From contig JAUWJS010000005.1 of NCBI GenBank assembly GCA_030607575.1, forward strand, positions 1-52,301: a stretch of 52,301 nt of DNA, read 5' to 3'. The position numbers were made by a program, and so were the translations under genes. Shown piece by piece: positions 36,698 to 40,847 of this stretch (positions are counted from its first letter, which is position 1; every line of letters starts with the position of its first letter). The notes beneath the pieces are model-generated. The model was not told where the DNA came from, did no database searches, and saw only the letters and a list, made by a program, of their open reading frames with translations. This DNA is from Candidatus Heimdallarchaeota archaeon (GTDB taxonomy: Archaea > Asgardarchaeota > Heimdallarchaeia > Heimdallarchaeales > Heimdallarchaeaceae).

Positions 36698-37357
36698 CTA
36701 AGCTGTCACAGTAGTTTCAACGGCTTGTTGAGTTGATGCAGTGGTACCCGGTAGCAATAATACTTTGCTTTTTCTGATATCCACCATAACTATTGGGTAT
36801 ATTTTTCCAACGATTTTTTTCATCTCTCCAGCAATTGTTCCATTTATCATGTTTTGAGTGAATTCTACAAATATCTGGGCTCTAGCTGTTGTTTTTATTA
36901 AATCTTCAATTGCTTTTCTAACAACTTTTTGTGTGCTTGCTCCACATCTAATAGGTGTGATAACAATAGATGAAACTCTTAATCTTGCTTTATCTTTTGT
37001 AACAACATTTTGTATTGCTTCAACCTTAGAACGATTTCTTCGTATTTGAGATCTGATTTGTTCTTTAGCAATTTCATGGCCATCAAATTCTGTTGTGCAA
37101 ATATTGCCTTCAACACTTGTAATTCGAAATCTGATCTTTAGATTTATATCGTAATAGATATCCTCAGCAACTCCAAGTCTAGCCATTTCAATCACTCTAT
37201 CAATTAGTTTTTCAGGCTCACTTGCAGGAGTTTCTCCTAAGGATTTATCAACAATATAACTTGCAGCTTTTACTTCGTACCAAGATTTTTCTTTCCATTT
37301 GTCTACTACTTTTATTTTTCCTTTAGTTTTTCGTGTTGGTCTTTGAGATGATGACAA
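36698..37357 (-). CDS. rps3ae: Ribosomal protein eS1 (S3Ae)
   Basis: A 219-residue eS1 small-subunit protein shared by archaea and eukaryotes. The basic N-terminus, KWKEKSWYEVKAASY and the central VEGNICTTEFDGHEIAKEQ-type region identify it. It ends the uS15 - RecJ/Cdc45-like - Pcc1 - eS1 gene order that recurs in archaea, with ~110 bases of its own upstream sequence including a likely promoter. Confidence 0.93.
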   Translation of the reverse strand: MSSSQRPTRKTKGKIKVVDKWKEKSWYEVKAASYIVDKSLGETPASEPEKLIDRVIEMARLGVAEDIYYDINLKIRFRITSVEGNICTTEFDGHEIAKEQIRSQIRRNRSKVEAIQNVVTKDKARLRVSSIVITPIRCGASTQKVVRKAIEDLIKTTARAQIFVEFTQNMINGTIAGEMKKIVGKIYPIVMVDIRKSKVLLLPGTTASTQQAVETTVTA

Positions 37358-37469: not shown

Positions 37470-37727
37470 TCAGCTTTTCACGCTCTTGTAAACTGATTCA
37501 ATAGTACTTATTGTGCTAATTATGTCATCCGCTGTATTTCTTAAAGTTGAAATCGGAGATGAGGATTTAAGCTTTAGAATTAATTTATTGTCATCAATTT
37601 CCATAATTATCTTTGTCTTGTCATCCACTTGCTTATTTTCAGGTTCCAAACTTTTAGCAATAATATTTGCCATTTCATTATTCTTGCATTCAATAACCAT
37701 CGTAAAGTTAGATTCATGTGAAATCAT
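37470..37727 (-). CDS. pcc1: KEOPS complex subunit Pcc1
   Basis: An 85-residue protein matching Pcc1/CTAG-like subunits: a beta strand, then NEMANIIAKSLEPEN, three strands, and a long helix beginning TLRNTADDIISTI. In KEOPS, Pcc1 dimerises and binds tRNA for t6A37 synthesis. Its ATG overlaps the stop of the RecJ/Cdc45-like gene as ATGA. Confidence 0.88.
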   Translation of the reverse strand: MISHESNFTMVIECKNNEMANIIAKSLEPENKQVDDKTKIIMEIDDNKLILKLKSSSPISTLRNTADDIISTISTIESVYKSVKS

Positions 37728-39214
37728 TTATCGTCTTCCTTCTCTTTTGAATTAGTTTCTACTTTTGTGCCTTCATGATGTTTCTTAAGAGCTTTTTCAA
37801 ACTCTTCAAGAACGACAGGATACACCTCATCAGAGAGTGCTAATCTGAAAAACTCATTTTTTCCTTTGAAGCATGATTCAGCAATAATCTTTTCTTTTAC
37901 TAAATCCTTAAAGAAGTGATATATTCGGAATCCTTTTTGAATCTGAGTTGGTGAATCATGCATATACAAATAGTTCATGTTTGCCTCTTTTAGTTGAAGA
38001 AGAAGCGGTATTTCTATTGTTATGATATTACTCTCAACAAGGGCTTTTATTACAAGAGGGGCTGATTCTAAATCAAAAATATCTTGATTTTTTATAATCC
38101 TATAATACTCTTTGTTTTCAACAATTCTTGAGTCTAGAGTGATTTTTTCAATTATTTGTGCTGCTTTTCCGTGATAATTTTCCATTTTTCGCTTAAGCTC
38201 ATCATATAAATTGGTTCTATCTCCTAAAATAACTGCAAGAGCTAAGCCATATTTCTTTATTTGACATGCTCCTTCTAACAGCCATAAATATTCTTCTGCA
38301 TCTCTTGTTTGGCTTTTACTTGTTTCTGTAAGAATAATATAGTTGGTGCCGAACAACAATTCTACCCTGAATTGGGGGTTTCTTTCTACCAGAAGAATAG
38401 TCAATTTTTCAAGCAATATCTGAGTTTCATCTTTTGCAAGCGATGAAAATGTTCTCCAATTACCATCTTTTTTCATTGGAATCTTCAGTTTAGACACAAA
38501 GGATGTACATTCTTCCTCATTTCCAGTTAACCCTGGAAAATATGGATTGATTGAATATTTCAAAGCTAAATGGATGGGAAGACTCTCTCTACCTGATATT
38601 CTTGTTCCCTTTGATTCTTCAAGTATCTCTTCTTCCTTCCCTTCATCTAGAATAAATCTGTTTATGCCAATCAACTCTTGGCTCTTTGAGTCAACTTGCT
38701 TGTTTGCTAAACCACCTACTACAGCTAATCCTGAGAATTTTGGATAATCTTCTGTAAAACCTTTTGCAATGAAGTATGCTAATCCTGCATTTGATAAGGC
38801 CATAATTGGAATTTCTAATTCCTTTAATGAAAGTGTTAAGATAGTATCCCAAGGTAGCTTTAACCTCTTATCAATTGTGAATTTATTGTCTATTATAATA
38901 ATATTCTTTGCTTCATCTTTGAGAAGTTTACTAGGTAATTCTTTTACCTGAAAACCAATAAATATGTATGTTAAATAGTTGATTTTCTTAATTCGTTCAT
39001 CCAAATCTGAGTTGTTATCAATAAAGATTATGTGACATCCCAAACCTATTTCTCTTAAACAGGAGACCAGAATACCAGATGCACACAAATTGTCAGGGTT
39101 AACCTTGCATATTATTACAAGATTTTCTTCCAAACCTTTAAGCAACTCAGAAATTTTGCCTGCCTCATCCTTCAGGTCTTGAATTTTTTCATAGGGAACT
39201 TCTATAGATGACAT
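37724..39214 (-). CDS. RecJ/Cdc45-like DHH-family protein, predicted catalytically inactive
   Basis: A 496-residue protein in the position occupied by the GINS-associated nuclease/RecJ1 gene (between uS15 and pcc1). The DHH fold is recognisable, but the metal ligands are gone: motif I reads N39-P-D-N (DADG expected), motif II IFIGFQ at 84-89 lacks its Asp, the DHH motif is D109-N-K, and motif IV reads GGLANKQ with N171 instead of Asp. The SNAGLAYFIAKG helix typical of the archaeal family is kept. This is the pattern of Cdc45, the inactive RecJ relative in the eukaryotic CMG helicase. A structural role with MCM and GINS is inferred. Confidence 0.78.
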   Translation of the reverse strand: MSSIEVPYEKIQDLKDEAGKISELLKGLEENLVIICKVNPDNLCASGILVSCLREIGLGCHIIFIDNNSDLDERIKKINYLTYIFIGFQVKELPSKLLKDEAKNIIIIDNKFTIDKRLKLPWDTILTLSLKELEIPIMALSNAGLAYFIAKGFTEDYPKFSGLAVVGGLANKQVDSKSQELIGINRFILDEGKEEEILEESKGTRISGRESLPIHLALKYSINPYFPGLTGNEEECTSFVSKLKIPMKKDGNWRTFSSLAKDETQILLEKLTILLVERNPQFRVELLFGTNYIILTETSKSQTRDAEEYLWLLEGACQIKKYGLALAVILGDRTNLYDELKRKMENYHGKAAQIIEKITLDSRIVENKEYYRIIKNQDIFDLESAPLVIKALVESNIITIEIPLLLQLKEANMNYLYMHDSPTQIQKGFRIYHFFKDLVKEKIIAESCFKGKNEFFRLALSDEVYPVVLEEFEKALKKHHEGTKVETNSKEKEDDK

Positions 39215-39272: not shown

Positions 39273-39725
39273 TTAGAGTAAAAGACCAGCTGTTTTTGGA
39301 TCATATTTCCATTTTGTTGGAAAAATACCCTGCTTCTTATAGAATTTAACTAACCTTCGAATCTTTGATTCAATTAATTGTAATCCCCTTTTACTGTGAA
39401 GATCCTTCTTATTTTCTTCTAAATGTTTTCTTAGATGAGAAGCTTTTCTAACAAGATTAACTAAATCTTCAGGATATTTTGACTTTAAATTCAATTCTTC
39501 TACAATTTTGCTCATTTTTGTGCCAAAAACTTCCTTTACATTGGGAATTCCATATTGGTCCCGAAGGATTATTCCAATCATTGCCGAAGATTGACCTTGT
39601 CTTCTAAGTTCTTCAACTTTCTTAATTACAAAATCCTTATCGTGAGGCATCCATTCTGGGGGTTGATTCCTATAAGGTCGAGTTGAACTCGCTTGTCCTC
39701 TTCTTCTTGCGTGCATTCTTGCCAT
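39273..39725 (-). CDS. rps15: Ribosomal protein uS15
   Basis: A 150-residue archaeal/eukaryotic-type uS15: MARMHARRRGQASSTRPYR at the start, PEWMPHDKDFVIKKVEEL, GLILRD-like GIILRDQYG, and the conserved LRKHLEENKKDLHSKRGL helix. I chose the ATG at 39725, preceded by GGTGA; a GTG at 39734 is in frame. It is followed by the RecJ/Cdc45-like gene and preceded by ITPase with only a few bases between. Confidence 0.93.
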   Translation of the reverse strand: MARMHARRRGQASSTRPYRNQPPEWMPHDKDFVIKKVEELRRQGQSSAMIGIILRDQYGIPNVKEVFGTKMSKIVEELNLKSKYPEDLVNLVRKASHLRKHLEENKKDLHSKRGLQLIESKIRRLVKFYKKQGIFPTKWKYDPKTAGLLL

Positions 39726-39738
39726 TAATTTCACCGGT

Positions 39739-40311
39739 TCATTGCTTTGCGAAGGTGGTTAAGGAGGTGAATAATATTCGAAGTGACTTTTGGCGGTGAG
39801 AATATAAATTCTTGGTTGCTAGTGTCATTTCAGCAAAAGTTTGTTCATTGTTTTCTGGTTGAAAAATTGGATCAAATCCAAACCCTTTATCGCCGATAGT
39901 AGAGAGAATTATTGAACCCTTTGTTATTCCTGTAAAGGTCTCTATAGACTTTCCATTGTAAAATGCTATCACTGATTTAAAATATGCTCTTCTATTTTCT
40001 TTACCGTCCATTAACTTTAGTATTCCTTCATTACTTATAGTTTTGAACGCATATGCGGAATATGGCCCAGGAAAACCATTCAGAGCCTCTATGAACAACC
40101 CCGCGTCTTCAAGAAAGAAATTAAGTGTTTCAAGTTCAGGTTTCTCTTGAATTACTCTAGAACAGCTTTTTCGTGCAATAATTTCAAGGGAATCTTCTTG
40201 AGGTTCTTCGTATTCCTGATTATACCATTTAACTAACAAGTTGTACTCTTTAGCAATACTCGAAGCTTCTTCGTATTTTGAAGAATTGTGAGTTACAAAA
40301 TGAATTTCCAT
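39739..40311 (-). CDS. XTP/dITP pyrophosphatase (RdgB/HAM1 family)
   Basis: A 190-residue house-cleaning enzyme that hydrolyses ITP, dITP and XTP. The N-terminal THNSSKYEEA is the family's T-x-N-x-x-K substrate loop. FFLEDAGLFIEALNGFPGPYS and GDKGFGFDPIFQP are the catalytic and base-recognition blocks, ending with SHR. It is immediately upstream of uS15 (13 bases to the chosen start), a common archaeal neighbour. Confidence 0.93.
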   Translation of the reverse strand: MEIHFVTHNSSKYEEASSIAKEYNLLVKWYNQEYEEPQEDSLEIIARKSCSRVIQEKPELETLNFFLEDAGLFIEALNGFPGPYSAYAFKTISNEGILKLMDGKENRRAYFKSVIAFYNGKSIETFTGITKGSIILSTIGDKGFGFDPIFQPENNEQTFAEMTLATKNLYSHRQKSLRILFTSLTTFAKQ

Positions 40312-40433: not shown

Positions 40434-40847
40434 ATGGAAGAATTAACCCATTCAACAATTTACAATTCTGCGGAGGATGTAACGATTGAAAAGGAAATTT
40501 TAGGTACTCTCTCAGAAGTCTCAGAGACAAATAACATTCTAAGCATTTATTCTATGAATGCCCGTGCAATTTACTTCTTTCCAGTAGCTTCTGATGTCTT
40601 TAGACTGAGTATTCAAATCTTTCCGCTGACTCCTGAAATTGTTGCAAAAATTATGAATAACATTTCAAAAATATCTACAAAGGTAGTTTATAGTACCGGG
40701 TTATGTCTAGTTGAAAACAGGTGTTTCTGGGAAGGCTTTTTGCAAGAAAAGGACTTAACTGTAGATGTAGATGAAATAGAAACTAGTTTAAGTTCAATTG
40801 CTGAAGTAACTAGTATCACAATTGAAAAAGTGATTAAAACAGGTTAG
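40434..40847 (+). CDS. Hypothetical small protein
   Basis: A 137-residue protein without a motif I know. It has an acidic N-terminus, two strand-helix units (NILSIYSMNARAIYFFPV; FRLSIQIFPLTPEIVAKIM) and a C-terminal strand-helix, as in small ferredoxin-like or ACT-like folds. It overlaps the convergent TFB gene by 4 bases at the stops. A TATA-like run near 40378-40386 suggests its own promoter. Confidence 0.6.
   Translation: MEELTHSTIYNSAEDVTIEKEILGTLSEVSETNNILSIYSMNARAIYFFPVASDVFRLSIQIFPLTPEIVAKIMNNISKISTKVVYSTGLCLVENRCFWEGFLQEKDLTVDVDEIETSLSSIAEVTSITIEKVIKTG

Follow-up and report, generated by a model that had tools for sequence, protein, structure and literature searches.

The window that we analysed, a stretch of 52,301 nucleotides from a Candidatus Heimdallarchaeota archaeon (assembly GCA_030607575.1, contig JAUWJS010000005.1, positions 1 to 52,301 of the forward strand), carries a tight same-strand cluster of genes in the order Ham1-S15-RecJ-Pcc1-S3Ae (Table 1). 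The order is kept in relatives, and it is the neighbourhood where archaea carry GAN/RecJ1 (Makarova 2012, PMC3307487); in Thermococcus, a GAN whose binding to GINS has been shown experimentally is encoded at this same locus (PMC3307487). An earlier note, made from the letters of the window, had placed the RecJ-like gene at the GAN/RecJ1 locus of an Asgard archaeon, and both statements were borne out, the first by the S15, Pcc1 and S3Ae neighbours and the second by the host, which is a Heimdallarchaeote. Outside the cluster, between Ham1 and TFB, lies an ORF of 137 aa without a Pfam match (40434-40847, plus strand), which has an STGLCF...EGY pattern in common with a 166-aa protein (L196); the two perhaps belong to a small paralogue family.

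Table 1. Genes of the cluster and features of the RecJ-like protein, with positions in the window
Feature	Positions	Strand	Remarks
Ham1-type NTP pyrophosphatase	39739..40311	-	first gene of the cluster
Ribosomal protein S15	39273..39734	-	upstream of the RecJ-like gene, same cluster
Motif-less GAN/RecJ-type (Cdc45-type) protein	37724..39214	-	496 aa; one uninterrupted ORF
Motif I	39089..39100	-	NPDN (N39-P40-D41-N42) replaces DxDG (DADG)
Motif II	38954..38956	-	Gly87 replaces Asp; reads IG
Motif III	38882..38890	-	DNK (D109-N110-K111) replaces DHH
Motif IV	38702..38704	-	Asn171 replaces Asp; A170-N171 for GD
CMG-interaction domain region	38360..38608	-	residues 203-285; 28/83 positions invariant in the family
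DHHA1-type C-terminal domain	37769..38104	-	residues 371-482
GGGH position of DHHA1	37859..37867	-	K450-G451-K452 replaces Gly-Gly-His of GGGH
Pcc1 (KEOPS subunit)	37470..37727	-	4-base overlap with the RecJ-like gene
Ribosomal protein S3Ae	36698..37357	-	

By its sequence the protein is clearly homologous to RecJ/GAN, though its match to the NCBIfam family RecJ_archaeal (NF053576; E 8e-54) reached 183 bits and thus lies below the 360-bit equivalog cut-off that confers the name of the active enzyme. In Pfam, the 496-aa protein matched DHH_CID (PF21763; 61 bits, residues 208-279) and gave no match to DHH (PF01368). We obtained an AF2 model of the whole protein (pLDDT 90.8, pTM 0.88), and the model and structure comparison show that the domain order DHH - CID - helical stem - DHHA1 is present. 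The top match of the model in the PDB was Pyrococcus RecJ (PfuRecJ; Z 37.2, rmsd 4.8, 458 residues), and together they confirm the earlier claim that the RecJ fold is kept. GAN in the ternary complex (7e15) gave Z 35.1 and Methanothermobacter RecJ-Cdc45 (7bhi) Z 34 over about 440 residues. Far below the archaeal structures, at Z 22, come bacterial RecJ and eukaryotic Cdc45, the values for human Cdc45 (5dgo) being Z 22.4, rmsd 4.4 and 12% identity over 433 residues. With GAN/RecJ1 (Thermococcus kodakarensis, 5ghr/7e15; Pyrococcus furiosus RecJ, 5x4h-k; arCOG00427) the protein shares the S15-Pcc1-S3Ae locus as well as the DHH-CID-DHHA1 order (hmmsearch E 6e-37). Methanothermobacter RecJ-Cdc45 is similar in fold, but its sequence match is 68.6 bits versus 130 for GAN.

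We read the metal motifs from an alignment to Pyrococcus RecJ and to intact Asgard orthologues. GAN/RecJ1, an active ssDNA exonuclease, has four metal motifs and a GGGH motif, and all of them are broken in the protein of the window. The same analysis was extended to the 21 members of the family to which it belongs, which we call f1. The Asp of motif II, the Asp of motif IV and the second His of DHH are kept in 0/21 members, with Gly as the substitute at motif II and Lys, Asn, Arg or Glu at motif IV. The remaining positions vary: the first Asp of motif I is kept in two of the 21, the Asp of DHH in three and the first His in 13, and the second Asp of motif I (D41) is found in every one. The family therefore shows a graded erosion of the motifs on top of a core loss common to all 21 members. 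The earlier note had reported that the Asp of motifs I, II and IV is replaced and that DNK stands for DHH, and all these substitutions were seen; its summary that all metal-binding motifs are lost is slightly too strong, D41 being invariant and the DHH Asp being kept in this species. Beyond that note, the GGGH of DHHA1 proved to be lost as well. A mere shift of otherwise intact motifs can be dismissed: aligned as profiles, the family and its intact orthologues run collinear over 471 columns (hhalign 100%, E 3e-58). A sequencing error or frameshift is ruled out by the identical core loss in 21 sequences. Judging from these residues, the f1 protein is very probably nuclease-dead.

The best conserved part of the protein across the whole f1 family is the CMG-interaction domain (CID). 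Among the 21 members, 28 of its 83 positions are invariant versus 35 of the 413 positions elsewhere (Fisher p 2e-8), and the sequence NPFxPGLTGN of this domain is still recognisable in the motif-less family f3. In human Cdc45 the CID makes all the contacts with MCM and part of those with GINS (PMC4873980). For several pairs among the closest relatives of the species, dN/dS in the CID was raised, reaching 0.95 at most, with few changes behind the ratios.

As for the partners, the genome of the species encodes MCM in one frame of 1864 codons, interrupted by apparent inteins, and two GINS-domain genes that score above the cut-off of the family, one of which does so only when the frame takes in its neighbours. 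One GINS-similar gene sits a few kilobases from MCM on the same contig. The MCM frame (L192-L194, G000:C7:53786-57958) apparently holds three inteins, with one gene for GINS and one for CTP synthase nearby. A RecJ with intact motifs elsewhere in the genome, for which the earlier note had proposed to look, was not detected in the 87.6% complete assembly: the profile of intact Asgard GANs revealed no second GAN/RecJ and matched only the f1 gene and a COG1107-type DHH protein. The same profile had the same outcome, with no second GAN/RecJ, in the single-contig genome of Heimdallarchaeum endolithica PR6 (G022). From a reading of their sequences, the other DHH proteins of the species' own genome were assigned as follows: L001 is NrnA-like, L002 is of the COG1107 type, its N-terminal regions being zinc-finger-like and OB-like, and L003 is a short DHH/DHHA1 protein.

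The protein is most likely a dead descendant of GAN/RecJ1 that serves as a Cdc45-type, non-catalytic structural subunit of the archaeal CMG helicase, and we hold this reading with considerable confidence. Its CID and DHH body would dock on the MCM ring and GINS; so docked, the subunit would hold the helicase or activate it, and would not cut DNA. We infer that the f1 protein binds GINS and MCM and stimulates MCM, and that it is devoid of nuclease activity. According to PMC13201583, which cites Xu et al. 2016, archaeal orthologues of Cdc45 and GINS form a stable complex, and MCM is stimulated by it. With a dead DHH domain at the GAN locus, a conserved CID, and MCM and GINS in the genome, the f1 protein fits the inactivated archaeal RecJ/Cdc45 proteins (arCOG00432 of Desulfurococcales, arCOG00428 of Halobacteria and arCOG05692 of Thermoproteales; Makarova 2012, PMC3307487), in which a dead DHH domain likewise stands in the same gene neighbourhood and which have been proposed to be dedicated structural parts of CMG (PMC3307487). 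Those proteins belong to other lineages, whereas f1 is an Asgard family, from Heimdall, with what is most probably an inactivation of its own. Sulfolobus RecJdbh/Cdc45 (SSO0295 family, NF053566), a non-catalytic partner of GINS, is a weak match (33 bits, residues 188-285) and has a deteriorated DHH domain (PMC3307487), whereas the f1 protein keeps the complete fold.

The neighbours of the gene lend themselves to another explanation. S15, Pcc1 and S3Ae lie on the same strand, and a link to translation was left open by Makarova 2012 (PMC3307487), so that the protein could be an ssDNA- or RNA-binding factor of translation or KEOPS and not of replication. We consider this unlikely: the same locus holds the GINS-bound GAN of Thermococcus, the domain that has been conserved is the one for interaction with CMG, and GGGH, the motif for binding nucleic acid, is lost. 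Among the points against the main reading are the raised dN/dS of the CID in close relatives and the incompleteness of the assembly. A further one is that D41 is invariant even in members otherwise without motifs, so that the old site keeps some ligand or structural role. Taken further, D41 and other residues, such as the first His that more than half of the members keep, could form an altered metal site with a weak or different activity, making the protein a residual or remodelled hydrolase. Such an enzyme is very unlikely, given that the Asp of motif II, the second His and the Asp of motif IV are missing throughout the family, that motif II is now Gly and motif IV a residue of the kinds listed above, and that the DHHA1 motif has gone too.

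Among Asgard archaea, homologues were found in 136 of the 146 genomes searched. Proteins 75-93% identical to that of the window occur in 'Candidatus Heimdallarchaeota' genomes, including AB_125 (75%), and a 35% identical protein of Candidatus Heimdallarchaeum endolithica PR6 belongs to the same family f1. The family f1 shares its order with f3 and f4, which are motif-less like it, and with f2, which is intact; in the wider class, the motifs are intact in f5 and f6 and missing from f7. The f7 protein (genome G055, L261:1397-2917, minus strand) is a very divergent motif-less RecJ encoded beside Ham1 near S15, a weak match (34 bits) but at the right locus. In f9, whose named relatives include Lokiarchaeota and Thorarchaeota, the copy at the S15-Pcc1 locus is motif-less and another, lying elsewhere, is intact, which looks like a division of the nuclease and CMG roles between the two. 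The f9 copy at the locus is strongly degenerate (L199-L214, L091 and L112 versus L065, L074 and L078-L083). For f8 and f23, the genomes that we examined (L264, L267, L268 and L270) have S3Ae directly after S15, no RecJ or Pcc1 was detected between the two, and an intact RecJ, moved out of the ancestral cluster, is found elsewhere. Finally, the f25 protein (G143, L073:1992-3452, plus strand) has kept the Asp of motifs II and IV, with the first Asp of motif I changed to Glu, DHH changed to DND and GGGH lost; it is a possible intermediate.

In a tree of the RecJ sequences, the f1, f3, f4 and f9 copies stand apart on long branches, and f1, f3 and f4 as one clade was not rejected (AU p 0.30). The RpoB tree strongly supports f1,(f2,(f3,f4)) and has f7 as the sister of the intact f5. 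A single origin of the loss in f1, f3 and f4, which that AU result would allow, has the RpoB tree against it. Since the intact f2 is nested among motif-less families in the RpoB tree, the inactivations would be separate unless intact genes were re-acquired, and most simply the loss in f1 was a separate and later event. Under vertical inheritance of the gene, the motif losses of f1 and of f3/f4 are separate events, with f7 as a third loss and f9 as a fourth. The alternative is that f2 or f5 re-acquired an intact gene; for f5 a transfer is possible, because in the RecJ tree f5 groups with the f8 and f23 copies rather than with f6.

The earlier note had gone further and seen in the protein a candidate for an already Cdc45-like state, in which case the eukaryotic lineage would have inherited that state and Cdc45 would descend from this inactive form. 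The f1 protein does have the superfamily fold, the CID and an inactive DHH domain in common with human Cdc45 (5dgo), its host is an Asgard archaeon of the Heimdall group, the Asp of motif II is lost in both (INCG in human Cdc45, IGFQ here), and PDNLCA resembles DVDALCA, with an hhalign probability of only 5.6% from a template that is a single human sequence. We nevertheless regard descent as highly improbable. Motifs are intact in the families f5 and f6, from the same class, and in f2, from the same order, which lies inside the motif-less families of the RpoB tree. The profile comparison that the note had proposed gave 130 bits for GAN and 11 bits for Cdc45 with the f1 profile, and the best Cdc45 chain scored 11.3 bits with this profile versus 12.2 bits with the intact-GAN profile. 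Human Cdc45 keeps both Asp of motif I (SDVDALCA), whereas the f1 protein has the second only. Further, two features described for Cdc45 are the helix-6 insert and the F542 loop, which stands where the last DHHA1 strand would be and closes the DNA groove (PMC4873980); our model has a regular last strand at 455-461, and the helix-6 insert is missing from both alignment and model. With a profile that comes no nearer to Cdc45 than that of intact GANs, and without the loop and the insert, the Cdc45-like state as a stage on the way to eukaryotes is not supported. We also considered a Cdc45-like phenylalanine tether and rejected it: F456 is conserved in 20/21 members, but the strand that holds it is regular, and pairwise comparison with Cdc45 scored no better than shuffles did.

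From the distribution of intact motifs we infer that the motif loss in f1 was separate from that in eukaryotic Cdc45, and since the losses within Asgard archaea are most probably separate, the f1 form would not be a direct step towards Cdc45. By analogy there is good reason to think that the protein works like Cdc45; that it is Cdc45 or its direct forerunner is without support. The lost catalytic motifs and the long branch might also suggest a decaying pseudogene without function, which can be set aside because the gene is under purifying selection, with a whole-gene pairwise dN/dS of 0.08-0.25, the ORF is intact down to 35% identity among relatives, some 60 positions are invariant and the gene order is kept.

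A dead RecJ/Cdc45 at the GAN locus has been known since 2012 from Crenarchaeota and Halobacteria (PMC3307487), in a paper that predates Asgard genomes. In the open-access literature we found no paper on RecJ/Cdc45 inactivation in Asgard archaea, and its repetition within this group may be new. A question raised in the field is whether an active nuclease was part of the ancestor of the eukaryotic CMG, and what purpose it had (PMC5484177). From the mere presence of a dead version nothing follows about the descent of Cdc45. We think it rather probable that the CMG-bound nuclease of Asgard archaea was switched off repeatedly (in f1, f3/f4, f7 and f9) while the CID was kept, so that losing the nuclease would be a trend that recurred near the origin of eukaryotes, one instance being Cdc45, rather than something that happened once. 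Sister families near the eukaryotes hold active and dead forms of one subunit side by side, and what the loss of the nuclease costs can be tested in them.
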